Shown one piece after another: positions 19,711 to 38,095 of a stretch of 38,095 bases of DNA. This DNA comes from a virus. Under the pieces are notes generated by a model. It worked only from the letters and a program-made list of their open reading frames with translations. It did no database searches and was not told where the DNA came from. A program made the position numbers and the translations under genes. The first letter of the stretch is position 1; each line of letters begins with the position of its first letter. The stretch lies in IMG/VR virus record IMGVR_UViG_3300024520_000216, positions 1 through 38,095 of that record. One strand, given 5' to 3'.

Positions 19711-19938
19711 TTATTTATCTTCTTTTTTTACTTTCTTTTTTAATTTCTTTTTAACTTTTTTCTTTATTTCTTTTTTAACTTCTTCAGAGATAAACCAATG
19801 TTGGCAGCCAACAGTGCTTAACTCTTTTTGTTCATCTGCATTTAAATCAAATTCTTGAAAAACTGAAGTGATAACATGCTTCGACAAGTGCATTTTCCCA
19901 TGGGGATGTTTTCTTTTTAGTTTTATTTTTACTTTCAT
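19711..19938 (-). CDS. Lys-rich small protein, 75 aa
   Basis: Very basic, with KVKIKLKRKHPHGK near the start and a Lys/Glu tail made of repeated KKxVKKKxKK units over the last 24 residues. The middle (HLSKHVITSVFQEFDLNADEQKEL) is helical. It could bind DNA or the capsid interior or act as an assembly factor. It lies after the major capsid gene, behind a terminator that should lower its expression. Confidence 0.65.
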   Translation of the reverse strand: MKVKIKLKRKHPHGKMHLSKHVITSVFQEFDLNADEQKELSTVGCQHWFISEEVKKEIKKKVKKKLKKKVKKEDK

Positions 19939-19956
19939 TTTACTTCCTTAACTTTT

Positions 19957-25071: not shown

Positions 25072-25101
25072 ATTGTAAAACTAAAAGTTTAAGTTTGTCA
25101 A
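25072..25101 (-). promoter_or_regulatory. Late head-operon promoter
   Basis: On the minus strand, a perfect -35 TTGACA (25101-25096), an 18-base spacer and -10 TACAAT (25077-25072) lie about 50 bases ahead of the portal start. A small inverted repeat, TTGCC-5-GGGCAA, sits in the leader at about 25055-25070. This is the best host-sigma70-like promoter in the window. Confidence 0.75.
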
Positions 25102-25113
25102 CATAATAAACCT

Positions 25114-25152
25114 ATTTACGTTTTATTTACAAAATATTTAATAAGCATTTAC
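25114..25152. promoter_or_regulatory. 11-bp phased TTTAC array ahead of the portal promoter
   Basis: ATTTAC at 25114, ATTTAC at 25125, ATTTAA at 25136 and ATTTAC at 25147, each exactly 11 bp apart on the plus strand. The array lies 13-51 bases upstream of the portal -35 and reaches into the last codons of the terminase gene. It is likely an operator or activator array, or phased AT tracts acting like an UP element. Confidence 0.65.
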
Positions 25153-26712
25153 TTTTATTCTAGACTTCCTTTTATCTCTCTTATTGCCATCTTGCATTCT
25201 GTAGGGCTTGGCGTCTTTATTAGCATCCGAAACTTTTGAGTAAGACACCTTTTCTAGGAATTGAATTGCCTGAGTAAGAGCATCAACCTGGTCGTCGTTC
25301 TTCCCATTAGGAAAGACTTTAAGTTCTTCCACGCATTGTTTTATCCAGGGACAAATTGAAGGATCGGGAAAATAAATATTTCCTGCTTTGAATAAAGGTA
25401 TCTGGCATTCTGCTCTTTCAACCTTTCCGCCGTCTGGCTCTACTTCAATTATTCTTTTTACTCCCGGCCTTACTTCTCCATCGGCTCCTACATCTGACTT
25501 TCTTAGCATTGAAATGATTCCTGGGCCGTTAGCTTTGTCTTCAATTAAAAGAGCTTTAAAATCTGAGTGCATTTTTATAAAGTATTTAACAGCATCAAGA
25601 GTTTTATCAAATCCCATTCTTGCGCGGACCATATCCGGCAACAAATAAATATCTCCTGTCAATCTTTGTCTTGCCCAATGTTGGCCAACAACGAAATCGG
25701 TTTTTCTTCCTTTAGTTTTTGATTTCTCTTTAAACGTTAAATCCCATGAATGAACTTTATAATAAAGATCTTTAGGAATAGTCGTATAGTATTTAAAATA
25801 TTCCTCTTTAAAGATAAGGCCTTCTGCAGGTGCTGGCCTTTGTTGATATTGCCCCGCGTATCCTTCAGGATCCGCAAGTTCCATGGCTTCCAATTCTTCT
25901 TCAGTATGTTTAAAAGACCATAGAGCTTCGCCGGCGGATCTAGGATCGTACTTTGATTGTCCGTCTTCATTTATTGCCGGCAAATTAATATGAGAAAATT
26001 CTAACTCCGTTCCACCATCTAAAAGAAAGCCTGCGGGATCCTCTTCATGAAGTCTCTGCATTATAATAATCATAGGAGTAAGTCTATCATTTAATCTTGA
26101 TTTAATTGTTTGTGGGAATCTGTTATTAATTCCGTTTCTTATGGTATCTGAATTACTGTCTTCAGGTTTTAAAGGATCATCAACTATTAAGGCTCCAGCG
26201 AATTTTTTACTTCCTAATTTACCGGCTCCAAATCCTGTTACACTTCCGCCTGTTGCGGTCGCGGACATTTCGCCGCCCGCAGTAGTCTTCCATTTTTTCT
26301 TAGCTTGAGAATCTCTTTTGAATTCTATAGGCCACAACTCTTGATACCTTTCATGACTTATAATTTCTCTGACCATAGAAGAGTTGGCCAAAGCTAAATC
26401 ATCAGAGTATGCTAAATTAATAAACTCACAACTGGGATTCCTAGCAAAGGACCAGGCAGTAAAAATCTTCACTACGATTTCAGTCTTTGTATATCTAGGC
26501 GGTATATTAATAATAGTATGCAAAAGTTTTCCTGAATGAATATCTTCTAAAACTTTGCAAAGAGTTTTATGGTGCCAATTGATTTCAAATTTTCTTTTAT
26601 ATATTTCTTTAAAGACCCACAAAGTAAAGTCAAAAAGATCGGCCTCGAGTTTTCTTTTGAGCTCTTCGTTTTCTATTTGTTTAAGGGTTGGGAGCTCAAT
26701 CTCAGTCTCCAT
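25138..26712 (-). CDS. Terminase large subunit, 524 aa
   Basis: The DNA-packaging motor. The ATPase domain shows a Walker A-like NIPPRYTKTE (69-78), Walker B LIVDD (175-179) and the coupling region IIIMQRLHEEDPAG (about 215-228). The RNase H-like nuclease domain has the three acidic sites in HSWDLTF (about 330), LIEDKANG (about 398) and NDDQVDALTQA (about 480). Full length for the family. The start overlaps the 46-residue gene upstream by 11 bases. The stop is within the TTTAC array that precedes the portal gene. Confidence 0.96.
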   Translation of the reverse strand: METEIELPTLKQIENEELKRKLEADLFDFTLWVFKEIYKRKFEINWHHKTLCKVLEDIHSGKLLHTIINIPPRYTKTEIVVKIFTAWSFARNPSCEFINLAYSDDLALANSSMVREIISHERYQELWPIEFKRDSQAKKKWKTTAGGEMSATATGGSVTGFGAGKLGSKKFAGALIVDDPLKPEDSNSDTIRNGINNRFPQTIKSRLNDRLTPMIIIMQRLHEEDPAGFLLDGGTELEFSHINLPAINEDGQSKYDPRSAGEALWSFKHTEEELEAMELADPEGYAGQYQQRPAPAEGLIFKEEYFKYYTTIPKDLYYKVHSWDLTFKEKSKTKGRKTDFVVGQHWARQRLTGDIYLLPDMVRARMGFDKTLDAVKYFIKMHSDFKALLIEDKANGPGIISMLRKSDVGADGEVRPGVKRIIEVEPDGGKVERAECQIPLFKAGNIYFPDPSICPWIKQCVEELKVFPNGKNDDQVDALTQAIQFLEKVSYSKVSDANKDAKPYRMQDGNKRDKRKSRIKVNAY

Positions 26713-26842
26713 TGATTCTTCTTTTTTCTCTTTCTAATAATTCGTCTTCAGATTCTATAGGAATTAAAATAGGTACTCTATCAGATTCTTTAGGACCAAA
26801 TAAAAAATCTAATAACAAATCTATTATATTAGTTTTCGTCAT
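26702..26842 (-). CDS. 46-residue protein between terminase subunits
   Basis: ATG 26842 has an excellent AGGAG site with seven-base spacing and overlaps the small-terminase end by 14 bases. Its stop overlaps the large-terminase start by 11 bases. The sequence is apolar at first (NIIDLLLDFLFGPKES) and then charged (EDELLEREKRR). It may bridge translation to the large subunit or be a small packaging accessory. No family recognised. Confidence 0.75.
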   Translation of the reverse strand: MTKTNIIDLLLDFLFGPKESDRVPILIPIESEDELLEREKRRINGD

Positions 26843-27257
26843 TTATTTTCTCCTGGTCAATTACCATCTGTTTTATTTGTGTGAGTTGCTCTTTGGTAAG
26901 TTTACTAAGATTTAAAGTTTTACCTTGATTGACAGTGACTTCAGATTGTTTAGGTCTCATACCAGTAATATGATCTAGCACCCAGTCCATTCTTTCAGAA
27001 CTTCCTTGCTCATTCATAAGAGATAAATGTTTTAAAACAGCCATATCCATTATAGATAAATTTTTACAGTTTTCAATGTGGGCGTTAACTTCTTCAGGTG
27101 TCCAGCTTGCGTACTTAGACATCAAGGTTTTAAATTGTGTTCGGGTTGTTAACCTTAGAGCTTTTTCTTCAGCAGAAAGTGAAGGCCGGCCATGGCCGAC
27201 ACCAAGTTTATTTCCTTTCTTAAATCTTCCGTCGTTTTTAGGTTCTATATCTGACAT
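26829..27257 (-). CDS. Terminase small subunit, 142 aa
   Basis: Gene order and the N-terminal FKKGNKLGVGHGRPSLSAEE segment, typical of small terminases with a basic DNA-binding start, support this. The middle (ENCKNLSIMDMAVLKHL, RMDWVLDHITG) matches the helical oligomerisation region of such proteins. The product should recognise phage DNA and load the large subunit. It starts at a one-base TAATG junction with the 82-residue gene upstream. Confidence 0.8.
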   Translation of the reverse strand: MSDIEPKNDGRFKKGNKLGVGHGRPSLSAEEKALRLTTRTQFKTLMSKYASWTPEEVNAHIENCKNLSIMDMAVLKHLSLMNEQGSSERMDWVLDHITGMRPKQSEVTVNQGKTLNLSKLTKEQLTQIKQMVIDQEKINDEN

Positions 27258-27505
27258 TATTTTTTTATCCTTAAATATTGATTATTTTTATGACTCCAAA
27301 CAGTTTTGTATTCTGCTCCGTTAAAAGTATAGTAAACAATGAGCCAAACAGACTGGGTGTCAAACTTCTCATGTGGTAGCTTTTCCATGATGCTATACTG
27401 ATAAACTCTTGACCCTAAGGCAAGTTTGCTTTGCAGCCTTTTAATGTTTTCGAGAAAACAAGGGTCGTCCGATTCTTTATTGTAATATCTCTCTGAATTT
27501 GTCAC
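27257..27505 (-). CDS. Hypothetical protein, 82 aa, GTG start
   Basis: Unrecognised. A soluble protein with aromatic residues in the C-terminal half (QSVWLIVYYTFNGAEYKTVW). The start is GTG 27505, seven bases after GGAGG; no ATG fits. It lies between the VRR-NUC gene and small terminase. A GTTTAC inverted repeat about 20 bases upstream may control it and the terminase genes. Confidence 0.7.
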   Translation of the reverse strand: MTNSERYYNKESDDPCFLENIKRLQSKLALGSRVYQYSIMEKLPHEKFDTQSVWLIVYYTFNGAEYKTVWSHKNNQYLRIKK

Positions 27506-27524
27506 CGGTTTTCCTCCGCATTAT

Positions 27525-27541
27525 GTTTACCTAACGTAAAC
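27525..27541. promoter_or_regulatory. GTTTAC-5-GTAAAC inverted repeat (operator candidate)
   Basis: A perfect 6+6-bp dyad with a five-base gap, in the 65-bp space between the VRR-NUC and 82-residue genes. The half-site is the hexamer used in the 11-bp arrays elsewhere, and the centre spacing is again 11 bp, here in opposite orientation. Confidence 0.55.
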
Positions 27542-27570
27542 AATTACTAAATGTTAACCTAACTAAAATC

Positions 27571-27939
27571 TTAGCACGATTTCCCAAAATATGAAAGTAC
27601 CTCCTTTAAAGCTTCTGTTTCACCAAAACAGACCTCAACTTTATAACCTCTTTCCCGATAGCGAGTATGTTTATCATGCTGAACTTTTGTAGTCGTTCCG
27701 CCAGTGCTTTCTTTCATCTCTATAAAGAGACCGTGAAAACCTTGACGCGCTCCAACAAAGAATAAGTCTGGAACACCAGGCTCAATGCCTTCAAGTTTTA
27801 AAGTTCTGGCTTCGCCTTTATTTCTTTTCCCGCCATTAGGAATAGAAAAGAATTCAATCTCCGGATGATTCCATCTAAGTTTAAGAACCAACCGCTGTTG
27901 CTCTTGAGATTCAGATGGAATTTTGCTTTTACTTTTCAT
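27571..27939 (-). CDS. VRR-NUC domain nuclease, 122 aa
   Basis: A small stand-alone PD-(D/E)XK nuclease. Motifs are an early E13/Q14, the SIPNGG loop (32-37), GVPD with D58, IEMK (E74, K76) and Q87. The family cleaves branched or structured DNA and is common in phage replication modules together with SNF2, DUF2800 and DUF2815 genes, all present here. It is the first minus-strand gene leaving the divergent region. No ribosome-binding site is visible and the likely -10 box is only eight bases from ATG, so the mRNA may be leaderless. Confidence 0.9.
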   Translation of the reverse strand: MKSKSKIPSESQEQQRLVLKLRWNHPEIEFFSIPNGGKRNKGEARTLKLEGIEPGVPDLFFVGARQGFHGLFIEMKESTGGTTTKVQHDKHTRYRERGYKVEVCFGETEALKEVLSYFGKSC

Positions 27940-27947
27940 TTACGTAT

Positions 27948-27977
27948 ATTTTACTTTTTAAGTTCTACCTTGTACAA
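27948..27977 (-). promoter_or_regulatory. Possible promoter for the VRR-NUC gene
   Basis: On the minus strand TTGTAC, an 18-base gap and TAAAAT (five of six to consensus). The expected start site lies within a few bases of ATG 27939. The -35 match is poor, so confidence is limited. Confidence 0.35.
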
Positions 27978-28050
27978 TTTAAAAGTGCGTGAAAGCCGAA
28001 GTTTTTTTGAAAATGGATTTTCTTAATAGCTTCATTAAAGGCGTCTCCAA

Positions 28051-28080
28051 AAAAAGGTCTCTATTTTTAGAGGCCTTTTT
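28051..28080. terminator. Bidirectional intrinsic terminator
   Basis: Arms at 28051-28063 and 28068-28080 pair over 13 positions with one G-U, around a TTTT loop. The A-run on one side and T-run on the other make it work in both directions. No gene ends here, so it must insulate the divergent region or end a small RNA. Confidence 0.85.
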
Positions 28081-28191
28081 CTTATTCCAAACTTAAGCAA
28101 ATATTGGCCGGAATTTTCAGCACAGCCTTGAAGCTTAGTCCCTTAATAAAAATATTCGATTATTCACTTTTAAATCTTTTTCTCTGCTTGT

Positions 28192-28240
28192 ACCCCGTTT
28201 CGATTCTCGGGCTCAAGCAAGAGAGAATCGGAATCGGGGT
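28192..28240. other. Long imperfect hairpin in divergent region
   Basis: ACCCCG (28192-28197) pairs with CGGGGT (28235-28240), and CGATTCTC (28201-28208) pairs with GAGAATCG (28223-28230), separated by a small internal loop. The apical loop has 14 bases. The 3' side continues into a T-rich stretch (TTATTTTTCTTTT), so it could be a terminator for an RNA or a DNA structural element. Confidence 0.6.
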
Positions 28241-28389
28241 TAAGAAATTATTTTTCTTTTAATTCTTAATAAAGATAATAAATTCTTTAAATCTTTTAAC
28301 TATAATCTTTGGTACTTTTTGGAGTCACGATAAAGCATAGAAGGGGCCTTCATCATTTCTATTATGAGAATCAAAAACAAAATTCTTAA

Positions 28390-28442
28390 GGCCGGATTAG
28401 AATTCTTCCTTAAGCCTATGGCCCGGAAGAATTCATCCGGCC
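28390..28442. other. 18-bp hairpin with EcoRI-like arms, origin structure candidate
   Basis: GGCCGGAT (28390-28397) pairs with ATCCGGCC (28435-28442), and GAATTCTTCC (28400-28409) pairs with GGAAGAATTC (28425-28434). This is a perfect 18-pair stem with a two-base bulge and a 15-base loop. Outer 9-bp arms AAACAAAAT (28375) and ATTTTGTTT (28488) could close a larger structure. No T-run follows, so it is not a terminator; a protein-binding or replication-initiation hairpin is possible. Confidence 0.65.
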
Positions 28443-28641
28443 ATAAACAAGGCTAGTCAGCTAATTAGGTCAATAGTCTTATTTGTGATTTTGTTTAACA
28501 GATATTAAATATTTTATCATAATTTCTTTAAAAATAATATACTTTGGGAAGGGACTATTTTGGTTTTTTCTTATGTTTTTAATAAATTAGGTAAAAAATA
28601 CTTTGTAGAAATTACACACTGTGTTGCTAAAAAATAAAAAA

Positions 28642-28690
28642 GTTTACAAGGTGTTTTTTAACGCTTACATTTTATTTACACAATCTTTTA
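28642..28690 (+). promoter_or_regulatory. TTTAC array upstream of primase-helicase
   Basis: Units GTTTAC (28642), GTTTTT (28653), GCTTAC (28663), ATTTAC (28674) and CTTTTA (28685), spaced 11, 10, 11 and 11 bp. TTTACA at 28675 followed 11 bases later by TAGATA is a poor conventional promoter, so an activator-dependent or repressed start is likely. Confidence 0.6.
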
Positions 28691-28755
28691 TTAGATAACT
28701 TTTTTGTAAGTGAGCACTTTGAAAATGCGTTGGGTGGATAAATAAAACGGCATTG

Positions 28756-28813
28756 AAAACTTTGAGTTCTTAATTGATTGCGTGTGATACTACTTAGAAC
28801 TCAAAGTTTTTTT
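28756..28813 (+). terminator. Leader terminator/attenuator before primase-helicase
   Basis: A perfect 15-bp stem (AAAACTTTGAGTTCT at 28756-28770 with its complement at 28796-28810), a 25-base loop and a run of seven T. It lies between the TTTAC array and the gene at 28858, so either a short RNA ends here or expression of the replication operon is attenuated. Confidence 0.85.
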
Positions 28814-28857
28814 AAATTTCTACATTATAAAGATAAGCTAGCAAGGAGTATAGTTTA

Positions 28858-30738
28858 ATGAATTTCAAAATATCCCAATGGGACAACGCCAAACAAACTC
28901 ATGCAAGAAATAGAACTGATATAAAGATACAAGAATTTTCTCAATTAGCTGAGCTATTTGCAAATCCAGTTCCAGTTGAAAATAAAGTCGATCAAAAATT
29001 AATCACTAGACAATGGCAAGAATCGCGCTCAAGAGAAAATGAGGTTGTCGATAATAAATGGCTAATCACTTTAGATTATGATTCGGTGAAAGATGAGCCG
29101 GGAGAAGTTAGCAAAAAATTAATGACTTTAAAGATAAATCATTTTATCTTTACAACCTGGACACACAAAACAATTGAGACACCTCAGAAAAAGAATAATG
29201 GTTTAAATTGTTTTAAAGTTATGCTGGAAGTAACTGCGGAAAATCCTGAAGAACTTTTAGCTCTAACAAGATCGCTCGCAGATAAAACAGGTAAACCAGA
29301 AGTTAAAAGAGTTGACGATATTTCTAGCGGAATATTTTTAGGTGGAGTTCATCCAGACTTTCTTGATGATTTCGTTTTTATTTATTTTAATGAAGGTAGA
29401 GATGTTGACTGGACAAAAAACTATCTTATAAAGAGCAGTCCAAAAATAGAGGAGCTCAAGCAAGACCCACTTTCAGATTTTGAACAATGGGATTTAACTG
29501 CAGGCCAGAAGTTTACACCTGATAGAATTAAAAGAGCGCTTTCTTTAATTAAATATGAAGAGGTTGAAAACTTTAGTAAGATGTCAATTTGGTATTCAAT
29601 TGGATATGCTTTGCATTCTGCCAAAGATGCTAAAGGTGCTGAAGACGTCGATCTCTTTGAAATCTGGGATGAATGGTGTTTAGATAATTGCGCAGAGCAT
29701 GGAGTTTACAGCCGAGAAGAAAATGAAAACTTTTGGGCTAAACAAACTGCTCCAGAAAAATATAAAGAACTTTGTACGCTTTCAACTTTATGGCTTTTAG
29801 AAAAAGTATTTAAAGCAAAGCAAGCGACTAGCGAGATAAGAAAATCATCCTGGACATTTTTTGATACTCTTGCCGAATCAGAGCCTGAAGAAGTTAAATT
29901 TATTATAAAAGATTTATTAGTTGAAAAGTCCATAGGATTTTTAGTGGGGACTGGAGGCGTAGGTAAATCTTCTTTATGTTTAGAAGTTGCAAAAGCAATT
30001 TCAAGCGGAGAAGATTTTTTCGGTGATAAACGTTATCCAACTATTCAAGGAACTGTTGCAGTCATTAATAAAGAGGATAGTGTCAATAAAGTTCATAATC
30101 AAATCCATAACATGATCGCTTTAGATATTGAGAGGGAAGGAAGAGGCGGACCTATTGAAGATTTTTCTGATGATACCGTAATCAATATGACTCCTGAAAA
30201 AGAAAAGCAAATTAAAAAGCGGTGGGAAAATGTCGCACGTCCTCAATGGTCTCAGTCTAATATAAGATTGACTGATGGTGAGGGAGAAGATTTAGAAGCT
30301 CTTAGCGCAATCATAGGCTCTTTAAAGAGTCTAAAAGAAGAGCTCTTTGAACAGGATAAACCAGAACTAAGTTTAGTTATTATCGACCCATTAAATTTAT
30401 GGCATGGAGGAGACCAAAACTCTCAAAAAGATATGAGCTATATTTTCTCGGCGCTCCAACAAGTTCAACGGGATTTAGATGTCTGCGTTTTAATTGTTCA
30501 TCATAAAAATAAATCAAACGGTTTTTCCGGTAGTCATACCATTAGAGATTCGGGAAGGTATATGTGGTATTTACAAAATAAATTAATTGATAAACAAGAA
30601 AATCCAGATTTCATTGAGCTTTATATAGAAAAGAATAATGATGCTAAAGCAAATTATATTGCTTTAGATTTTATAAGAACCGAAAAAGGCCTTTTAGATA
30701 CTTATGAAGGCGAAATCAAAAAGGGGTTAGAAGAATGA
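28858..30738 (+). CDS. Primase-helicase fusion (AEP-like primase, PriCT, RecA-like ATPase), 626 aa
   Basis: N-terminal archaeo-eukaryotic-primase-like region with a DxD pair in TLDYDS (D73, D75), then TWTHKT (H103) and the strand NCFKVMLEV. Residues about 220-320 match a PriCT-type linker domain (YSIGYALHSA, EIWDEWC). The C-terminal RepA/DnaB-like ATPase has Walker A GTGGVGKSS (365-373), Walker B VIIDP (D511) and HH 549-550. It should prime and unwind DNA at the origin. First gene of the replication operon, with AAGGAG nine bases ahead of ATG. The primase call rests on motif pattern and is less certain than the helicase. Confidence 0.88.
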   Translation: MNFKISQWDNAKQTHARNRTDIKIQEFSQLAELFANPVPVENKVDQKLITRQWQESRSRENEVVDNKWLITLDYDSVKDEPGEVSKKLMTLKINHFIFTTWTHKTIETPQKKNNGLNCFKVMLEVTAENPEELLALTRSLADKTGKPEVKRVDDISSGIFLGGVHPDFLDDFVFIYFNEGRDVDWTKNYLIKSSPKIEELKQDPLSDFEQWDLTAGQKFTPDRIKRALSLIKYEEVENFSKMSIWYSIGYALHSAKDAKGAEDVDLFEIWDEWCLDNCAEHGVYSREENENFWAKQTAPEKYKELCTLSTLWLLEKVFKAKQATSEIRKSSWTFFDTLAESEPEEVKFIIKDLLVEKSIGFLVGTGGVGKSSLCLEVAKAISSGEDFFGDKRYPTIQGTVAVINKEDSVNKVHNQIHNMIALDIEREGRGGPIEDFSDDTVINMTPEKEKQIKKRWENVARPQWSQSNIRLTDGEGEDLEALSAIIGSLKSLKEELFEQDKPELSLVIIDPLNLWHGGDQNSQKDMSYIFSALQQVQRDLDVCVLIVHHKNKSNGFSGSHTIRDSGRYMWYLQNKLIDKQENPDFIELYIEKNNDAKANYIALDFIRTEKGLLDTYEGEIKKGLEE

Positions 30739-30989
30739 TAAAGCTAGGCAATTTATACGTAAACAGAGGCAGTATGGGAGAGTTGTGTTGTAGTGCGGAT
30801 AAGCTTCCTATTTGGTGGCAAAGAGTTACTATTAACGATAAAGGAGAAATTTTTAAATATGAAAAATCTACCAAATCCGAATATCAGAACGAAGTTGTTC
30901 ACGAGAAAAAGGAAGAGTCTCATCAGCATGAATCCTTTCAGCCATCTTCCGTGAAATTCGACCCCGTGCTTTCCAAGCAGAAACTGTAG
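30735..30989 (+). CDS. Hypothetical protein overlapping the repressor gene antisense, 84 aa
   Basis: Starts at an ATGA overlap with the primase-helicase stop, which supports translation. The first 45 residues look ordinary (VNRGSMGELCC, PIWWQRVTI), while the C-terminal half is polar, low complexity and rich in Lys, Glu, His and Ser. That half lies exactly where the gene overlaps the YdaS-like repressor on the other strand by 122 bases, so its composition may be dictated by the repressor. Function unknown. Confidence 0.55.
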   Translation: MIKLGNLYVNRGSMGELCCSADKLPIWWQRVTINDKGEIFKYEKSTKSEYQNEVVHEKKEESHQHESFQPSSVKFDPVLSKQKL

Positions 30990-31107
30990 GAACACTGATG
31001 TTAAAATATTTAGAAATTTGTGTAGCATTATTACTAAAAAAATCTAGAAAGAGATATAAAGCTTCTTTATTTTTCTCTGCGTTTTGTTTAGAAAAAGATA
31101 TTTCCAT
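30868..31107 (-). CDS. YdaS/Cro-like transcription repressor, 79 aa
   Basis: A helix-turn-helix protein of the Cro/YdaS family: the HTH at about 29-48 (ISKYFNISVPTVSAWK) is followed by the family's characteristic ARGRISRKMAERI and the C-terminal REQLRSDI. ATG 31107 follows GAGG. It reads left against the replication genes and away from the SNF2 gene, and the gap holds TTTAC repeats that could be its own operator. Known relatives are lambdoid Cro-type regulators, often with proteobacterial hosts. No partner CI gene is visible. Confidence 0.88.
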   Translation of the reverse strand: MEISFSKQNAEKNKEALYLFLDFFSNNATQISKYFNISVPTVSAWKARGRISRKMAERIHADETLPFSREQLRSDIRIW

Positions 31108-31131
31108 AATGTCCTCGAGGCTAAAGTTTTT

Positions 31132-31159
31132 ATTTACAAAATGTTTACACTTTATTACT
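31132..31159. promoter_or_regulatory. TTTAC repeats between repressor and SNF2 gene
   Basis: ATTTAC (31132), GTTTAC (31143) and a partial ATTACT (31154), each 11 bp apart, in the 85-bp divergent gap. TATATT at 31161 may be a -10 box for the SNF2 gene, but the spacing to TTTACA (11 or 22 bases) is not canonical. A likely operator for the adjacent YdaS-like protein. Confidence 0.55.
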
Positions 31160-31192
31160 GTATATTAGATGAATTAAAAAAGATATAGGAAA

Positions 31193-32473
31193 ATGAAAAA
31201 GAAAGAACTTTTAGCACATCAATTAGATGCTTTGGCTTGGATTAAAAAGCAAAAATCTAAAAAACTTATTCTTGCTCTTGATATGGGCCTTGGGAAAACA
31301 GTAATCGCTGCCAAGACTATACAAAAAGATGAAAGAGTTTTAGTGATTTGTCCGGCGTCCCTAAAATTAAACTGGGAAAGAGAATTAAAAATCTGGGCCA
31401 TATCTGTTCCTATTCAAATTATAAAAAAGAAAACAGAAACAATTTTAAAAAGACCAGGGATAACGATTATTAATTATGATTTACTTGGGCAAAAATCTAG
31501 TAAGAAGAAAAATGCAAGAGCCATTGCAAATTATGATTTTTCAGGTTTTGATAAAGTTATTTTAGATGAATGTCACATGATAAAAAATGCAAAACCTGTA
31601 AGATCAAAAATCTCAGGAAAAATAATTAGGTTAACACCAAAAGCAATTCTTCTTTCTGGAACACCAATGGAAAGACCAATTGATCTTTATGTTCCTTTGT
31701 TTTCTATTGGAGCAATTAAAGGTTCAAGAGATTCATTCGGCCATAAATTCGGTGACCCTAAAATGTTATGGTTAGGGACTAAACAAGTTTGGGCATTTAG
31801 AGGAGCATCAAATGTTCCTGAACTTAAAAAGATTTTAAAACCAGTTATGCTAAGAATGCTAAAAGAAGATGTAATTGATTTACCTGAAAAAGATATTTCT
31901 GTTGTTGCTCTTGATCTTCCAGTAGGAAAACAAGAAAAGAATTATAGCTTTACAGATATTATAAAGGATCCGAGGCCTATGGGCTTTGAAGGTCTTTCAG
32001 AACTTTTACATGAACAAGGCATTAGTAAAGTTCCATTAGCGGTCAGACATATTAAAATGCGTTTGGAGACAGAACATAAAATTTTAATTGTTGCCAAGCA
32101 CACAGACGTTATAGAATCTTTAATGGAAAAGTTAAAAGAATTTAATCCGGTAAAGTTAGATGGAAAATGTACAGCTGACCAAAAACAAAAAACAGCAGAT
32201 ACTTTTCAGGAAGATAAAAATTGTAGACTTCTTATTGGCCAGATAAAACCCGTCGGAGTCGGCTGGACACTAACTAAAGCCAAGCATATTATTGTAGTTG
32301 AACCTGACTGGAGTTTTTCAAACTTAATGCAAGTTATAGATAGACTTCATAGAATCGGGCAAAAGAATAATGTCACTGCGGAACTTTTAACAATCCATAA
32401 TTCAATATGTGAAAGAGTTTTATATACAACATTAGAAAAGAAAGGTTTTATCCAAGAAGTGATAGGCCTATAA
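31193..32473 (+). CDS. SNF2/DEAD-box helicase, 426 aa
   Basis: A superfamily 2 DNA translocase. Motif I is DMGLGKT (30-36), motif II DECH (125-128), motif III SGTPME (155-160), and motif VI in DRLHRIGQK near residues 385-395. Shorter than cellular Swi2/Snf2 proteins, as is usual for the phage form that travels with VRR-NUC, DUF2800, DUF2815 and PolA genes. It probably aids replication or recombination, for example fork remodelling. First gene of a new plus-strand unit, divergent from the repressor. Confidence 0.95.
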   Translation: MKKKELLAHQLDALAWIKKQKSKKLILALDMGLGKTVIAAKTIQKDERVLVICPASLKLNWERELKIWAISVPIQIIKKKTETILKRPGITIINYDLLGQKSSKKKNARAIANYDFSGFDKVILDECHMIKNAKPVRSKISGKIIRLTPKAILLSGTPMERPIDLYVPLFSIGAIKGSRDSFGHKFGDPKMLWLGTKQVWAFRGASNVPELKKILKPVMLRMLKEDVIDLPEKDISVVALDLPVGKQEKNYSFTDIIKDPRPMGFEGLSELLHEQGISKVPLAVRHIKMRLETEHKILIVAKHTDVIESLMEKLKEFNPVKLDGKCTADQKQKTADTFQEDKNCRLLIGQIKPVGVGWTLTKAKHIIVVEPDWSFSNLMQVIDRLHRIGQKNNVTAELLTIHNSICERVLYTTLEKKGFIQEVIGL

Positions 32474-32486
32474 CAAGGAGAAGAGA

Positions 32487-32936
32487 ATGAGCATGCAAGA
32501 AAAAGTAATGATGAAGCAGGAAAATTTTAACAAACTTCAGGAGTTGATAGTCACTGCGCTATTGGTAAATGTGGACACACCCTACTGTGTTTTTTCAAAA
32601 GACTCTGGACATGTTTCTCATGTTGGAATTAAAGTTTGTAAATCTAAAGACGACTGGTACTCAGTGATTGTCAGAGAAAGAATTTTTTCTTATGATACCC
32701 CCTGGACAGAAAAAAATCAAAAACATTATGAAGAACTTATGTCAACCTTCGGAAAACTTTTAGCTGGAGATTACCCGTCTCTTTTTAAAGTTGAAGTCAA
32801 TACAGGAATCGGAAAAGTAACTGAAACTTTTTCAACTGAAGATGAACGTCAAGAATTTATTGCTAAAGGCTTGGCAGCAAATAACTTACTTACTTTTAAA
32901 GAGTCTATGAAACTTTTAACAGAAGGAGAATCTTAA
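32487..32936 (+). CDS. Hypothetical protein, 149 aa
   Basis: Between the SNF2 and DUF2800 genes, with AAGGAG ahead of ATG 32487 and a one-base TAATG overlap with the next gene. A mixed alpha-beta soluble sequence (HVSHVGIKVCKSKDDWYSV, TWTEK-like PWTEKNQKHYEEL) with no recognised motif. Context suggests a replication or recombination accessory. Confidence 0.8.
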   Translation: MSMQEKVMMKQENFNKLQELIVTALLVNVDTPYCVFSKDSGHVSHVGIKVCKSKDDWYSVIVRERIFSYDTPWTEKNQKHYEELMSTFGKLLAGDYPSLFKVEVNTGIGKVTETFSTEDERQEFIAKGLAANNLLTFKESMKLLTEGES

Positions 32937-34024
32937 TGAGCACTCACGCAGAATTTAGCCCGAGCAATTCAAAAAGATGGTTGACTTGTACGGCTTCAAT
33001 GACTTTACCTAAGAAAAAAGAAAAGCCGTCAGCATACGCCAATAGAGGAACAGCTTTACATGCCATAGCTGATGATATTTTAAATAAGAAAGAAATTCAA
33101 GAATCTTATGATGATTATACGCCAACAGAAGAAGATATGATTTGTACTGTTCAACCCTACGTTGATTATATAAACAGCATAGACGTTGACCATAAATTCT
33201 ACGAACAAAAAGTTTTTCTTTCTGAAGACTGTAATGGAACGGCCGATTTTATAGGATTTAATTCTAAAACAAAAACTTTACACGTTGCAGATTTTAAGGC
33301 CGGTAAAGGCGTTTTTGTAAAGGTTGAAAATAATACTCAACTTCAAATTTATGCGATAGGAGCAATGGAATATGTTAGTTCTTTTGGGCCAATTGTAGAA
33401 AAAGTGATAACTCATATTGTTCAACCAGGAATAGATAATATTTGTTCTATGGAAATTCCATTGGAAACTTTAAATGCTCTTTACGAAAATGTTTTAAAAA
33501 GTATTGAAGATGTAAGAACAGGAAACGTCAAATATGAAGCTTCTCAAGATGGTTGTCGTTGGTGTCAACACAAAACAACTTGCCCGCATTTAAAAAGTCT
33601 TACTCAAAAGATTGCCCAAGAAGAATTTGAAAATATGGAGCTCTCAGAAAGTTTGTCCCTGGTCCCTGTTTTAAAATTATTTATTAAAGCAGTAGAAGAA
33701 AAATCTTTAGAAGTTTTAAATCAAGGTAAAAAATTAGAAGGCTTTAAATTAACAAGAGCTCGAGGGAAAAGAGTTTTTAAAGATATAGAAAAGGTAAGAA
33801 CTATTCTCGGTGCTGAAGGTATAAAAGAAGATGAACTTTTACATGACAGAAAACCTTTTACAGTTCCTCAAACAGAAAAATATTTAAAGACAGCGAAAAT
33901 TGATATTGATCTTTCAGACTATATTGAAGTTCAAGAAGGTGCGCCAAAAGTTGTACCCGAAAAATCTCTTTCAAAAAAAATAAATAAAACAGAAGATGCT
34001 CAACAAGTTTTTAAAAATATTTAA
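32936..34024 (+). CDS. DUF2800 Cas4/RecB-like nuclease, 362 aa
   Basis: A PD-(D/E)XK nuclease with a predicted iron-sulfur cluster. N-terminal FSPSNSKRWLTC gives C18; RGTALH gives H42; GTADF gives D104; VADFKAG gives D119 and K121; and NTQLQIYA gives Q135 and Y139. CRWCQHKTTC (C207, C210, C216) supplies the other cluster cysteines. The family is a standard part of phage replication modules beside DUF2815 and is probably an exonuclease in end processing or recombination. The gene ends at a hairpin terminator. Confidence 0.92.
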   Translation: MSTHAEFSPSNSKRWLTCTASMTLPKKKEKPSAYANRGTALHAIADDILNKKEIQESYDDYTPTEEDMICTVQPYVDYINSIDVDHKFYEQKVFLSEDCNGTADFIGFNSKTKTLHVADFKAGKGVFVKVENNTQLQIYAIGAMEYVSSFGPIVEKVITHIVQPGIDNICSMEIPLETLNALYENVLKSIEDVRTGNVKYEASQDGCRWCQHKTTCPHLKSLTQKIAQEEFENMELSESLSLVPVLKLFIKAVEEKSLEVLNQGKKLEGFKLTRARGKRVFKDIEKVRTILGAEGIKEDELLHDRKPFTVPQTEKYLKTAKIDIDLSDYIEVQEGAPKVVPEKSLSKKINKTEDAQQVFKNI

Positions 34025-34031
34025 TTTATTC

Positions 34032-34055
34032 AGGCCTAAGAATTTTCTTGGGCCT
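34032..34055. terminator. Hairpin terminator between DUF2800 and convergent small lipoprotein
   Basis: AGGCCTAAGA pairs with TCTTGGGCCT (one G-U) around an AATT loop. It lies eight bases after the DUF2800 stop and two bases beyond the stop of the minus-strand microlipoprotein, so it can serve both. The T-run is short (TTTC). Confidence 0.7.
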
Positions 34056-34056
34056 T

Positions 34057-34179
34057 TCAATAACAATAATGAAGTTCTACCCCATCTATATTTTGATATT
34101 CTTCAACTTCACATCTTTCATTAGAGACGTCGTAAAATTCACAAGAAGAAAAAAATAATAAAAGAAAAATTATTTTCAT
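34057..34179 (-). CDS. 40-residue predicted lipoprotein
   Basis: A very short minus-strand gene. The N-terminus KIIFLLLFFSSC is a compact lipoprotein signal with Cys13 as acceptor, leaving a 28-residue acidic mature peptide containing two more cysteines. A TATAAT hexamer lies seven bases before ATG and no clear ribosome-binding site is seen, so any mRNA would be nearly leaderless. A phage surface-exclusion factor is a possible role; alternatively it is a chance ORF. Confidence 0.45.
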   Translation of the reverse strand: MKIIFLLLFFSSCEFYDVSNERCEVEEYQNIDGVELHYCY

Positions 34180-34291
34180 ATCTTTATTATACCGTAAAAA
34201 AAATTCTTATCTTTATATACATCTTTTAAAATACCGGTTTATAATATAAGTATCCATAACCGGTTGGCCTTATCTGGCCTGGATTCAATCC

Positions 34292-34333
34292 AAAAGGGTA
34301 GTTTAGGCTTATTTGAGTAAAAACTACCCTTTT
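34292..34333. terminator. Strong 13-bp terminator hairpin, possible end of a small RNA
   Basis: AAAAGGGTAGTTT (34292-34304) pairs perfectly with AAACTACCCTTTT (34321-34333) around a 16-base loop. A-rich and T-rich ends allow termination on both strands. It lies 270 bases after the last plus-strand gene, so it does not simply end that gene. Confidence 0.75.
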
Positions 34334-34389
34334 CACACCAAGAAAATAGAGCTCCTAAGCGCCTGAAAAAATAGGAATATTTAACATTA

Positions 34390-34428
34390 ATTTACAGAAT
34401 GTTTAATAAAAGCTTAATAAATGTTTAC
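34390..34428 (+). promoter_or_regulatory. Four-unit TTTAC array
   Basis: ATTTAC (34390), GTTTAA (34401), GCTTAA (34412) and GTTTAC (34423), each exactly 11 bp apart. The last unit overlaps the -35 box of the promoter at 34424, so a bound protein would block or position RNA polymerase. Confidence 0.7.
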
Positions 34429-34452
34429 ATGGATTTAAATCCGGTGCATAAT
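34424..34452 (+). promoter_or_regulatory. Promoter for the 34.5-36.0 kb small-gene operon
   Basis: -35 TTTACA (34424-34429), an exact 17-base spacer, -10 CATAAT (34447-34452). The predicted start near 34459 gives a 40-base leader with AAAGGA before ATG 34499. Confidence 0.75.
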
Positions 34453-34498
34453 GATTCTATACTAACAAACACAAAAACTTAAAACAAAGGAAAATAAA

Positions 34499-34735
34499 AT
34501 GGAAGGTTACTATAAAAATATTGTCACACTTGGAGAAACATCTATAGCTAAATTAATTAGATACAATTTAGATTGTAATTATGAAAGAGATTATGCTTAC
34601 TCAATATTTATCAAAGGCGAATATAATGATATGTTGATGGAGATGGATGTTGTAGAAATACCAGTCCCAAACGTTGGCCTTGCTTATGAGATGTTCAAAA
34701 CTTTTAAAAAATTAGAAGATTTAAAAGACGCATAA
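34499..34735 (+). CDS. Hypothetical acidic protein, 78 aa
   Basis: First gene after the array-controlled promoter. Acidic and soluble with many tyrosines in the first half (RYNLDCNYERDYAYS) and a helical end. No family recognised. Being promoter-proximal and small, it could be an early host-takeover protein; this is only positional inference. Confidence 0.75.
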   Translation: MEGYYKNIVTLGETSIAKLIRYNLDCNYERDYAYSIFIKGEYNDMLMEMDVVEIPVPNVGLAYEMFKTFKKLEDLKDA

Positions 34736-34748
34736 TAAACTTTTAACT

Positions 34749-34762
34749 GGGGCGAAAGCCCC
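34749..34762 (+). other. GGGGC-GAAA-GCCCC tetraloop hairpin
   Basis: A five-bp GC stem capped by a GNRA tetraloop, between two genes and just before the AGGA site of the gene at 34776. No T-run, so it is more likely an mRNA-stabilising or translation-modulating hairpin than a terminator. Confidence 0.6.
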
Positions 34763-34775
34763 TTAGGAAAATAAA

Positions 34776-34991
34776 ATGAAAACTGAATTTACTTATGAAG
34801 AAGTCCAAACTTATATAAAAAAATTAACACCGGCTGAAAAGAGCATGGTCCAATTAGAAGTTGTTGGTGCTTTAGATTTTATTCTTGATATGCACTTTGA
34901 AGAATATGAATCAATCTCTTTAATAGAATTAATATCTTTTACTGCTGAAGCCTATGAAGAGCATCAAAAAATAATAAAAGGGGAGGAATAA
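34776..34991 (+). CDS. Hypothetical acidic helical protein, 71 aa
   Basis: Strongly acidic and helical (TYEEVQTYIKKLTPAEKS, LIELISFTAEAYEEH). No motif recognised. Separated from the preceding gene by the GNRA hairpin and followed after one base by the next gene. Acidic small early proteins are common as inhibitors of host enzymes, but nothing here is specific. Confidence 0.75.
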   Translation: MKTEFTYEEVQTYIKKLTPAEKSMVQLEVVGALDFILDMHFEEYESISLIELISFTAEAYEEHQKIIKGEE

Positions 34992-34992
34992 A

Positions 34993-35244
34993 ATGCCAAG
35001 AATAAAAAGATTTAATGAAGAGGACTTTCAAAAAATAGCTATTATTTTAGAAAAAGAAATTAAAGAAAAAGGAAGTCTTGAATGGGCCGATTTAAAGATT
35101 CTTGTGGAGAAGAATATTGCGGTTAAAAATTGGTTGGACGTCCGCCGCGCGCTTTACCTGGTCACTTCAAAAGGTGAAATAAAAAGAACAGACGACTTTA
35201 ATAAAGAGGAATATATTTTAACTAAAAAGGAGATAAAAAAATGA
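34993..35244 (+). CDS. Possible winged-helix protein, 83 aa
   Basis: The sequence has a three-helix plus wing look: EEDFQKIAIILEKEIKEKG, LEWADLKILVEK, WLDVRRALYLVTSKGEIKR, then a final YILTKK strand. This suggests a small DNA-binding regulator, though no exact family is recognised. GGGAGG precedes ATG and the stop overlaps the next start (ATGA). Confidence 0.6.
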   Translation: MPRIKRFNEEDFQKIAIILEKEIKEKGSLEWADLKILVEKNIAVKNWLDVRRALYLVTSKGEIKRTDDFNKEEYILTKKEIKK

Positions 35245-35447
35245 GCAACATGAGCTATTGTAGATTTCAAAATACTGTTCAAGATTTGAGAGACTGTAAA
35301 GAAGCCTTAGAAGAACTTGAAGAACTTGGTGGCGTTGATGAATACGGTGAAAAATTAAGTCAAGCAGAAGAAAGAGCTAAGAAAAATTTGATTGAACTTT
35401 GTGAAGAAATTACTGAAGTATTTGGTAAAGATGAAAGAGAATTTTAA
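35241..35447 (+). CDS. Conserved small phage protein (MSYCRF type), 68 aa
   Basis: The N-terminus SNMSYCRFQNTVQDLRDC matches a widespread family of short phage and bacterial proteins that begin MSYCRFENT with a second cysteine about ten residues on. The rest is acidic helical. Function is unknown in all cases I know. Coupled to the winged-helix-like gene by ATGA. Confidence 0.8.
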   Translation: MSNMSYCRFQNTVQDLRDCKEALEELEELGGVDEYGEKLSQAEERAKKNLIELCEEITEVFGKDEREF

Positions 35448-35478
35448 TAAAAACTAATTAACAGCCTAGGAGGCAAAA

Positions 35479-35985
35479 ATGAAAATGACATTAAAAGAAT
35501 TAAAGCATCTAACACAAAAACAAATTAGAGTTTCAGCAGTAAAAGAATTCCCAGGAACAAAGATTCCTAAAAAGTGGACTGATAAAAAAGCTGCACTTGC
35601 TTGGTATGATAAAACTAGAAAAGCGGGGCCAGCTGTTGCGAAAACAAAACCTAAAAAAGTTGCTGTTACAAAACCAAAAGTTAAAAAAGAAAAGAAAGAG
35701 GCAGGGCCAACAGCAGGTAAAACTAGAAGGGAAAGAATTGTGGCTAGACTTTTAAATGAACAGTGCACCGCTTTGGAACTCGCCCAATATGAAAATGTTC
35801 AATACAAAGCGATCTTAGATGATATTCATGCCATTAGACATTCTCGAGCAGACGTAGATTTATTGCAAGGAAAAGTTTTAGCAGGAACAAGAGTCGGTAG
35901 AAGTAAAGTTTTTTATATTTGTTCAGAAGCTAAGGTAGAAATTTCTGAAAAAAGAGTTAAGGAAGAAGTGGAAATTGTAGCATAG
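35479..35985 (+). CDS. Basic protein with Lys/Pro/Ala linker, 168 aa
   Basis: Two folded parts joined by a Lys/Pro/Ala/Val low-complexity linker (about 49-80, TKPKKVAVTKPKVKKEKK). The N-terminus (MTLKELKHLTQKQIR) resembles a short SAP/HeH-like helix pair; the C-terminus (RRERIVARLLNEQCTALEL, KAILDDIHAIRH, SKVFYIC) looks like a winged helix. A DNA-binding, perhaps nucleoid-like or regulatory, protein is inferred. Strong AGGAGG site; followed by a terminator. Confidence 0.7.
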   Translation: MKMTLKELKHLTQKQIRVSAVKEFPGTKIPKKWTDKKAALAWYDKTRKAGPAVAKTKPKKVAVTKPKVKKEKKEAGPTAGKTRRERIVARLLNEQCTALELAQYENVQYKAILDDIHAIRHSRADVDLLQGKVLAGTRVGRSKVFYICSEAKVEISEKRVKEEVEIVA

Positions 35986-36013
35986 GACCAGGTAAACATT
36001 TTAAGAATAAACA

Positions 36014-36039
36014 GGGCTTCAAATCTGAGGCCCTTTTTT
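36014..36039 (+). terminator. Intrinsic terminator of the 34.5-36.0 kb operon
   Basis: GGGCTTCA (36014-36021) pairs with TGAGGCCC (36026-36033, one G-U) around AATC, followed by six T. Confidence 0.88.
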
Positions 36040-36173
36040 ATTTCCTTTTATAGAAATCAGCTAAAATATGGACGTCCAGATTGATCCAGGATTCCACCTG
36101 GTCACGTCATTAGTATGATAAGCAGTCTTTTTATAAGTCTTCTTACAACAAGAATAGAACACAAAAAATAAAT

Positions 36174-36214
36174 ATTTAATAAATGTTTACATTTTGTAAT
36201 TCATTTTCTAAGAT
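36174..36214 (+). promoter_or_regulatory. TTTAC repeats and promoter of the DUF2815 operon
   Basis: ATTTAA (36174) and GTTTAC (36185) are 11 bp apart; a TCTTAC at 36141 is in the same 11-bp phase. TTTACA (36186-36191), an exact 17-base spacer and TAAGAT (36209-36214) form a promoter with a start near 36221. The region 36040-36173 otherwise shows only a CCAGG-6-CCTGG hairpin near 36097. Confidence 0.6.
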
Positions 36215-36233: not shown

Positions 36234-36367
36234 ATGAAAAATTTGAGCAAGATGAACTTGTCGACCAGGTAGAAGAGGAGAAAAATATTTACCTAATTAA
36301 AATCCCTAAAAATTTAAAATTTTATTTTCGCACTTACGCGAACAAGAAAACATGGAGACGAATATGA
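36234..36367 (+). pseudogene. Small ORF with apparent frameshift or non-standard start
   Basis: ATG 36234 opens a 12-codon ORF ending at 36272, but an overlapping frame stays open to TGA 36367, which overlaps the next start as ATGA like other genes here. One extra A in the five-A run at 36237-36241 would join ATG to that frame and give a 44-residue protein (MKKFEQDELVDQ, IYLIKIPKNLKFYF, then a basic end). Alternatively, translation could begin at ATT 36287, six bases after GAGGAG, giving 26 residues. Sequencing error, real frameshift or AUU start cannot be separated here. Confidence 0.5.
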
Positions 36368-36882
36368 CGAAACTTATTACACCAGAATTTAGAGGTAGCT
36401 TTGTAACAGTGATGACACCAAAAGCTTTTTCAGCAGACCACGCCGCAAAATATTCTATAGTTGTTGCATTGCCTAAAGAAGATCAATTTTTTAAAGATTT
36501 AGATAAAGCAATGAATGATGCAGCAATGGAAAAGTGGGGAGAGATTCCTAAAAAGTTAAAAACTTTTTTAAAAGACGGTGATAAAGAAGATGAGAAATAT
36601 GATTGGGCGGGGAAAACTGTTTTCACTGCTTCAAATAAATCTCAACCAGGCATTGTTGTTAGAACAGAGCAAGGACTTGTTGAACCTATGCGCGATGAAG
36701 ATATTTATTCAGGTGCTTTCTATCGAGCATCCGTTAGACCTTACGCTTATGAATATAATAAAACTAAAGGCGTTGCAATTTCTTTAGACAATGTTATGAA
36801 AACAAGAGATGGTGAAAAATTCGCTTCAAGAACCAAAGCTCAAGAAGATTTTGCGGATTTTGTTGAAGGTGACTGGGACTAA
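36364..36882 (+). CDS. DUF2815 putative ssDNA-binding protein, 172 aa
   Basis: Matches the DUF2815 family, which accompanies DUF2800 and PolA in phage replication modules and has an OB-fold SSB-like character. Visible family-like segments are SFVTVMTPKAF, KYSIVVALPK, IYSGAFYRASVRPYAY and VAISLDNVMKTRDG. The acidic tail (DFADFVEGDWD) resembles the protein-interaction tail of SSB proteins. I chose ATG 36364, with GGAG six bases upstream and an ATGA overlap with the preceding frame; ATG 36352 lacks a site. A strong terminator follows. Confidence 0.88.
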   Translation: MTKLITPEFRGSFVTVMTPKAFSADHAAKYSIVVALPKEDQFFKDLDKAMNDAAMEKWGEIPKKLKTFLKDGDKEDEKYDWAGKTVFTASNKSQPGIVVRTEQGLVEPMRDEDIYSGAFYRASVRPYAYEYNKTKGVAISLDNVMKTRDGEKFASRTKAQEDFADFVEGDWD

Positions 36883-36902
36883 ATTAAAAATTTAATTTTT
36901 AT

Positions 36903-36930
36903 GAACCCTCTAAATTGAGGGTTCTTTTTT
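36903..36930 (+). terminator. Intrinsic terminator after the DUF2815 gene
   Basis: GAACCCTC (36903-36910) pairs perfectly with GAGGGTTC (36917-36924) around TAAATT, followed by six T. It separates the SSB-like gene from the nucleotide-metabolism operon. Confidence 0.92.
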
Positions 36931-36959
36931 CAACTAATAATTATATTTAAGGAGGCGGT

Positions 36960-37313
36960 ATGTTTAAACACATAAAACATCAGCACAAACATTTTAATAT
37001 TCTTTACACTGGTAGACCTAGACATTTGACACCTGAAGAAAAAGAATTCTATATAAAAGCAATCCTAGAAGAAGTTCAAGAATACCTTGAAGCAAAATCT
37101 CTAGAAGACGAATTCGACGCTCTTCTTGACATTATGGTGTTTACTGCCGGAGCTTTAATCAGACAAGGTTTTGATGGCGATGCAGGAATAAAAGAAGTTG
37201 TTAAAGCCAACATGCAGAAAATCGTCGGGCCTTTAGATAAAAGAGGTAGCTTTAAATTAGATCTTCAAAAACCTGTTGGATGGAAGCCGCCAAACTTAAG
37301 TCAGTTCTTATAA
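36960..37313 (+). CDS. MazG-like NTP pyrophosphohydrolase, 117 aa
   Basis: An all-alpha NTP pyrophosphatase fold. The metal-binding motif is ExxE at E38-E41 and a second acidic motif at D50-D53 with D57. The C-terminal KRGSFKLDLQKPVGW is typical of phage MazG-like proteins. Such enzymes turn (d)NTPs into (d)NMPs; dCTP or dUTP would be the useful substrate beside a dCMP-modifying enzyme, which is inference. AAGGAGG precedes ATG 36960, which comes right after a terminator, so a promoter or readthrough must feed this operon. Confidence 0.82.
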   Translation: MFKHIKHQHKHFNILYTGRPRHLTPEEKEFYIKAILEEVQEYLEAKSLEDEFDALLDIMVFTAGALIRQGFDGDAGIKEVVKANMQKIVGPLDKRGSFKLDLQKPVGWKPPNLSQFL

Positions 37314-37330
37314 ACTAAAGGAAATTTAAA

Positions 37331-37804
37331 ATGAAAAATAAAGAAAAAGATAACCGCTTTGAGTATCTTGATAAAGATAATCGCTATATATATCTTGATG
37401 AAGAAAACAAAGAAAACTCTTTTGATTCTCCAAAAGAGATTGCTGAAAAAATAGGCGCTTCAATTTTAAAAGTAGAAGAAGCCATGAAATTTGATAATGG
37501 TAAACCGCCAGTTCATCTTGTTGATAAAGAATTAATTTTAGAGACAGCAAAGATTTTAGGCTACGGGGCAGAAAAATATGAAGCGCATAATTGGAGAATA
37601 GGTATTCCCATTTCAAGATATTTTTCTGCAGCACAAAGGCATTTACTTGCATGGAATGATGGGGAGGATATTGATCCTGAATCTGGTCTCCTTCATTTGG
37701 CCCATGCTTCTTGCAATTTAATGTTCTTACTTTATCATACAAAAAATAATCCTCAGCTTGACGACCGTTTTAATCTTGAGAAAAATAAAGGCGGTAAAGA
37801 ATGA
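37331..37804 (+). CDS. DUF5664-type (dATP/dGTP diphosphohydrolase-like) protein, 157 aa
   Basis: The core KFDNGKPPVHLVDKELI, GAEKYEAHNW, RHLLAWNDGEDIDPESGLLHLAHASCN is the DUF5664 pattern, annotated as the N-terminal domain of dATP/dGTP diphosphohydrolases. His and Asp residues H104, D113, H122 and H125 are candidates for metal or substrate binding. The first 30 residues hold a tandem repeat, DNRFEYLDK then DNRYIYLDE, absent from most relatives I know. The stop overlaps the next start (ATGA), coupling it to the thymidylate-synthase-family gene. Confidence 0.82.
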   Translation: MKNKEKDNRFEYLDKDNRYIYLDEENKENSFDSPKEIAEKIGASILKVEEAMKFDNGKPPVHLVDKELILETAKILGYGAEKYEAHNWRIGIPISRYFSAAQRHLLAWNDGEDIDPESGLLHLAHASCNLMFLLYHTKNNPQLDDRFNLEKNKGGKE

Positions 37805-38095
37805 TTAATTATATTTTGTTAATGAAAAAAGTCCTAGCAAAAGGGCAAAGTCATAACGGAACGCTTTCACTATTTGGTGAGGGCTTGTCTTATGACCTTA
37901 GACGTGGTTTTCCGATAGTAACAACCAGGAAAATAAATTATAAAGCTGCTTTAGGTGAACTTGCTTGCTTTTTAAAAGGTGAAACAGATGTTAGAGAATT
38001 TCAAAAGAAAGATGTTAACTTTTGGAATGCTGATTGCTCTAAATCTTCATGGCAAGAAAATCCTCATTGTAAAAATGAGTTTGATCTTGGAGAAA
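37801..38095 (+). CDS. Thymidylate synthase family, predicted dCMP (hydroxy)methylase; N-terminal part
   Basis: Residues 1-98 of the protein completed at 1-652. Visible here are SHNGTLSLFG (17-26) in place of the usual DRTGTGT phosphate loop, RRGFPIVTTRK (34-44), and GELACFLKG with E53 matching the catalytic Glu of the family (E. coli E58). The missing arginine in the first loop is a second departure from ordinary thymidylate synthases. It begins at an ATGA overlap with the DUF5664 gene and leads on to the polymerase, forming one coupled nucleotide-replication operon. Confidence 0.9.
   Translation, partial: MINYILLMKKVLAKGQSHNGTLSLFGEGLSYDLRRGFPIVTTRKINYKAALGELACFLKGETDVREFQKKDVNFWNADCSKSSWQENPHCKNEFDLGE
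37953..38095. repeat. Terminal overlap, right copy
   Basis: Right-hand copy of the 143-bp overlap described at 1-143. Joining the copies rebuilds a single 267-residue thymidylate-synthase homologue running from 37801 across the junction to 652. Confidence 0.95.

Follow-up and report, generated by a model that had tools for sequence, protein, structure and literature searches.

The Apl protein of phage 186 binds as cooperative monomers to direct repeats 10-11 bp apart and represses both early promoters (PMC7498355), and BldC of Streptomyces, a small monomeric helix-turn-helix (HTH) protein, oligomerizes head to tail on direct repeats spaced by one turn (PMC5859096). PhoP boxes of the form (T/G)GTTTA-N5-(T/G)GTTTA and the 11-nt direct repeats of Pho boxes are also bound head to tail (PMC3335776; PMC4415409), host PhoB binds a cyanophage DNA polymerase promoter (PMC10976474), and lambda CII is a small HTH phage protein that acts on direct repeats around -35 (mentioned in PMC3335776). 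Here we describe arrays of the hexamer (R)TTTA(C/A), repeated with an 11-bp period, at promoters of the phage sequence IMGVR_UViG_3300024520_000216 (38,095 nt; the whole record was analysed and is called the window below). We consider it somewhat better than an even bet that these arrays are the operators of the phage's own Cro-family regulator, forming one phage-wide regulon that would be bound cooperatively on one face of the DNA and serve mainly in early shut-off.

The closest described proteins are the Cro-like "transcriptional regulators" of lytic siphophages (Pseudoalteromonas H40/1 and C7, Alteromonas PB15 and XX1924, Shigella Sf11, Escherichia Sa179lw and Drexlerviridae ESP2949-1), which are homologous to the candidate regulator of the window and have a similar gene arrangement. 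Their putative sites, in H40/1 and C7, are palindromes found in the regulator gap only, whereas the window has direct repeats at five or six promoters. Like the Apl/Cox/Xis systems, the window has early promoters with direct repeats at a spacing of 10-11 bp; Apl, however, also acts in prophage excision, whereas the window's candidate has a Cro fold, and no integrase, attachment site or recombination directionality factor (RDF) gene was found among the early-region and flanking proteins scanned, with most late proteins lying outside that scan. BldC is unlike the candidate in being a MerR-like winged-helix protein and a bacterial developmental regulator with a different repeat. Apl and BldC show that the head-to-tail, direct-repeat mode exists in other protein families. 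PhoP and PhoB systems usually have one or two boxes per promoter and a host reader, in contrast to window arrays of up to five units, and lambda CII, an activator of promoters with poor -35 boxes, uses a different repeat sequence in only two copies, unlike the arrays described here.

Direct repeats with an 11-bp period at phage promoters

Hexamer arrays with an 11-bp period had been reported at five places in the initial annotation, and all five are confirmed (arrays A to E; Table 1), with a sixth (F) added here. Some of the reported unit counts did not stand: B consists of three good and two poor units, C of two only, and D of five, beginning further upstream than described. In array B, the poor units read GTTTTT (28653) and CTTTTA (28685), and the good unit at 28663, GCTTAC, is reached by a 10-bp step. 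Arrays B, C, D and E precede every predicted early unit, and A and F lie at late promoters; all are read on the + strand, including A and F at their leftward genes.

Table 1. Arrays, promoters and genes in the window (positions on the 38,095-nt record).
Feature	Position	Strand	Details
Array A	25114..25152	+	units 25114, 25125, 25136, 25147, all good; 11-bp steps
Array B	28642..28690	+	good units 28642, 28663, 28674; poor units 28653, 28685
Array C	31132..31148	+	two units, 31132 and 31143; third unit absent
Array D	34379..34428	+	five units at exactly 11 bp: 34379, 34390, 34401, 34412 (GCTTAA), 34423
Array E	36174..36190	+	two units, 36174 and 36185
Array F (less certain)	27928-27954	+	TTTACTTTTCATTTACGTATATTTTAC; three TTTAC units, exactly 11 bp apart
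Late portal promoter	25072..25101	-	TTGACA-18-TACAAT; TTTACAAT upstream of portal gene in 14/14 related loci
Promoter D	34424..34452	+	TTTACA-17-CATAAT; -35 = last unit of array D
Promoter E	36186..36214	+	TTTACA-17-TAAGAT, upstream of SSB operon; -35 = last unit of array E
Cro-family regulator, candidate array reader	30868..31107	-	79 aa; profile, fold model, homologues
Early unit B	28858..30738	+	primase/AAA ATPase; 68% identity in G013
Early unit C	31193..34024	+	SNF2 helicase, g32487, DUF2800 nuclease-like; G013 comparison
Early unit D	34499..35985	+	small genes and HTH protein (35479-35985)
Early unit E	36352..38095	+	Enc34-type SSB, MazG-like, dNTP hydrolase, thymidylate synthase; into polA (649-2598) across contig end
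SSB, single-stranded DNA-binding protein; G013, relative IMGVR_UViG_3300023500_000011.

The counts place the motif far above chance. The whole window has 8 RTTTAM (that is, (A/G)TTTA(C/A)) pairs spaced at 11 bp, where shuffled sequence gives 0.75. Noncoding DNA (2,880 nt) accounts for 7 pairs, every one of them on the + strand (shuffles: mean 0.14, maximum 2 among 300), and has zero pairs at 9, 12 or 13 bp; all gene sequences combined hold 1. The spacing histogram has its + strand maximum at 11, with no such maximum on the - strand. When a unit model was built from four arrays with the fifth left out, the left-out array ranked first of ~76,000 positions in 5 of 5 cases. From this ranking and the pair counts, we conclude that the arrays are one motif and not chance. 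Genome-wide, TTTAC does not stand out in an unbiased test of 5-mer spacings, as other 5-mers score equally, many at multiples of 3; in noncoding DNA, TTTAC at 11 bp ranks top.

Array F is unique in the window in having three exact TTTAC words at 11-bp spacing, a triple that 100 shuffles never produced. Located where the VRR-NUC/terminase operon begins, it overlaps a leftward promoter-like site at the -10 (27953-27948); its assignment is less certain because one unit falls in coding sequence. An exact TTTAC pair at 11 bp also occurs on the + strand at 19928-19943, where a late head-region gene begins; it may reflect lysine codons.

The relation of the arrays to core promoters differs from site to site. 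At D and E the last unit is itself the -35 box, followed by the 17-base spacer that had been noted for two of the arrays. Array B covers a promoter-like TTTACA-17-TACATT (28643-28671) upstream of the primase gene, its units spanning both -35 and -10. The last two units of array A share sequence with the 3' end of the terminase gene, and the array stops 12 bp upstream of the portal -35; a TTTACA-17-AACAAT at 25079-25051 overlaps the portal promoter listed in Table 1. Array C, the top-scoring pair genome-wide, sits in the gap that separates the regulator gene from the divergent gene for the SNF2 helicase.

The units follow the consensus T(A/G)TTTA(C/A), in which A5 is invariant, C6 is present in 11 of the 14 units and a TpA step breaks each T run. 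These details bear on the suggestion that promoter DNA is bent or softened by the arrays as phased AT tracts, with no specific reader. The units are indeed AT-rich, placed one per helical turn and located at promoters; yet an intrinsic bend would fit poorly with a strand bias of 7 to 0, with the constancy of A5 and C6 and with a TpA step in every unit, and the arrays are missing from a relative that has equivalent core promoters (see below). We therefore regard bending as a very improbable main cause, and this part of the initial annotation is set aside.

A Cro-family protein as candidate reader

The YdaS-like protein named in the initial annotation as a possible binder is the candidate that holds up best, and it can now be placed more precisely in the Cro family. 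This 79-residue protein is homologous to the lytic siphophage regulators (H40/1, E 9e-7), a family of hundreds of records, and the family profile (A3) matches Xfaso 1 Cro (4.5e-11) and P22 Cro (6.6e-6). Its predicted structure has five helices in a compact, all-helical Cro fold (predicted local distance difference test, pLDDT, 93.5); the best fold matches are three chains of Xfaso 1 Cro at template modelling (TM) scores of 0.58-0.77, with weak Foldseek E-values of 0.3-0.4. In H40/1, C7, PB15, XX1924, Sf11, Sa179lw and ESP2949-1, the homologous gene diverges from an early helicase/NTPase operon and has a primase gene nearby, and the window's regulator gene shares this arrangement. The H40/1 and C7 genomes each contain exactly two copies of the palindrome TAAAC-N7-GTTTA, both inside the regulator gap and one within the 17-bp spacer of a promoter-like site, where a repressor site is expected; its GTTTA half-site resembles the unit of the window's arrays.

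Several observations weigh against assigning the arrays to this protein. Cro proteins are textbook palindrome binders, normally acting as dimers, and the putative H40/1 and C7 sites are palindromic, whereas the window arrays are direct repeats. The gap that holds array C is divergent, as for a classical Cro operator, but its repeats are direct and we found no TAAAC-N7-GTTTA on reading that gap; this counts against classical Cro operators, not against a Cro fold. Enrichment of GTTTA over 16 regulator gaps is weak, and no clear promoter with consensus spacing was found at array C. The relative on which much of the comparison below depends, moreover, is the sole informative one, possibly has a different host, and is missing six further small genes as well. 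In favor of the Cro-family protein, the top-scoring array lies in the regulator's own gap.

The main rival is a host response regulator of the OmpR/PhoB family (PhoP or PhoB type), for which the arrays would be boxes that tie the phage's replication genes to host stress, e.g., phosphate or magnesium limitation. The arrays are direct repeats with an 11-nt period, identical to that of PhoP boxes (PMC3335776) and Pho boxes (PMC4415409), and the word is nearly identical to theirs: set against the PhoP word (T/G)GTTTA, some window units read TGTTTA and others TATTTA. Binding of host PhoB at the cyanophage DNA polymerase promoter (PMC10976474) offers a precedent. Against such a reader, array A has four units and D five, D and E already have complete sigma-70 spacing, the top-scoring array adjoins a phage regulator gene, and arrays are missing at the matching promoters of the relative described below. 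We judge a host reader unlikely, if a serious contender; were it correct, a stress signal of the host would govern the phage's replication genes.

Joint absence of regulator and arrays in a relative

The relative IMGVR_UViG_3300023500_000011 (40,097 bp; G013 below) shares the early module, with identities of 68% for the primase, 64% for SNF2, 47% for DUF2800, 41% for the HTH protein, 68% for SSB, 68% for MazG, 75% for the dNTPase, 55% for thyA and 63% for polA. The regulator at 30868-31107 has no homologue there, and nowhere in the G013 genome is there an RTTTAM pair at 11 bp. Judged from the sequences, regulator and arrays are thus present or absent together in the single comparison available, with the rest of the early module retained.

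Core promoters persist in G013 where the arrays do not. Its promoter D has the block AAATCCGGTG, common to both phages, together with TTTACC-17-TATTAT and no upstream units; the promoter E region retains TTTACA and the portal promoter retains TTTACAAT, both likewise without upstream units, and array A falls opposite a 27-nt gap in the alignment. Core promoters A, D and E can therefore stand without arrays, and because they do so in G013, the arrays look like an added, probably negative, layer of control. With its similar early genes and neither regulator nor arrays, G013 also constitutes a ready natural control.

Other relatives add context. Four further large relatives, whose early modules differ, have neither the regulator nor the arrays and hold isolated pairs at most, and scans with DUF2800, the primase and the regulator for additional relatives recovered only the same virus or G013. 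Across portal loci, array A was found only in the same virus (L011) and in a relative with a portal 94% identical (L012), where 24 nt spanning both intergenic units are unchanged; array A as a conserved portal element was accordingly rejected, since the other loci keep just the core promoter. In a more distant relative (L024, portal 67%), the gap upstream of the small terminase gene contains three TTTACAC units at 11 bp (963-990) and additional TTTACAC copies at other spacings.

Absence from G013 also applies to a second phage protein, the small product of 34993-35244, which might read the arrays in the manner of an excisionase or Apl. It is encoded in the operon behind array D, and its helix pattern might be that of a small DNA-binding protein; however, it has no family or structure match, its single-sequence model is of low confidence (pLDDT 63) and its gene is not beside the top-scoring array, so that we hold a reader of this kind, this protein or another that G013 lacks, to be quite improbable.

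The HTH protein at 35479-35985 was rejected as a binder, as it has a homologue (41%) in G013, which is without arrays. The ribbon-helix-helix (RHH) protein proposed in the initial annotation (ORF 13679-13870) is conserved in all five large relatives (46-68% identity), none of which has arrays, and can be dropped. This ORF gives a weak NikA-like match and stands alone on the + strand inside the leftward late operon.

A putative early-to-late switch

The evidence above supports the suggestion that common operators read on one DNA face form a genome-wide regulon, and the Cro-family regulator, if it is the reader, could act as follows. Made early, it would fill the arrays head to tail and cooperatively, one subunit per 11-bp turn along one face. 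Early promoters would then be blocked, because arrays B, D and E extend over either the -35 or the entire core promoter and C occupies the divergent gap: at B, D and E, RNA polymerase would be excluded once the regulator accumulates, and at C, between the regulator and helicase genes, binding would result in autoregulation. At the late portal promoter, array A ends upstream of the -35, and its occupation may leave the promoter free or even help it. The outcome would be a switch from early to late transcription, and a simple account of gene timing in this phage.

The arrays run with early and against late transcription, because all share one strand. A bolder extension, which we put forward as speculative and rather doubtful, is that a Cro-family protein has exchanged palindromes for head-to-tail arrays and builds short filaments, one subunit per turn, at every early promoter, and that the polarity of the arrays could set the shut-off of early genes apart from the activation of late ones. 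If direct-repeat operators of one-turn period across all early units do serve a Cro-type regulator, they would illustrate how a small repressor becomes a multi-site, possibly spreading, regulator.

Genome organization and arrays elsewhere

The contig ends (1-143 and 37953-38095) overlap directly with 2 differences in 143 bp, and thymidylate synthase spans the join; because of this overlap, the window most likely represents an entire phage genome of ~37.95 kb. The record is classed as linear, but such a genome would be either circularly closed or terminally redundant. From 28858 the early genes extend rightward past the contig end as far as ~4.7 kb, and the late genes run leftward from 27939. 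A terminator-like hairpin lies at 36013-36034, 3' of early unit D. A search for the host via the portal protein against genome contigs gave no match.

Between the two gene blocks, the noncoding gap at 27940-28857 (900 bp) contains four strong hairpins (28050-28080, 28187-28245, 28390-28443 and 28755-28811), the last of which is followed by a T run ~45 bp before the primase start and resembles an intrinsic terminator or attenuator. The matching gap in G013 has unrelated hairpin-like inverted repeats. Rfam and tRNA scans gave no matches. This hairpin-rich gap is possibly a replication origin or an antitermination leader.

In a scan of IMG/VR for four-unit RTTTAM arrays, many of the matches listed were exact 11-bp tandem repeats or RTTTAAA arrays from an unrelated phage group, and regulator-like ORFs near the matches listed were few and weak. 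Because so many matches are of these kinds, the degenerate four-unit pattern is not specific to the regulator. A group of phages with Mu-like head genes (L050, L058, L065, L085, L091 and others) carries at least one four-unit RTTTAAA array at 11 bp, sometimes several per genome, and one record has seven exact 11-bp head-to-tail copies of GTTTACTTAAT (L046:5043-5125), which is also found in L041, L068 and L115.

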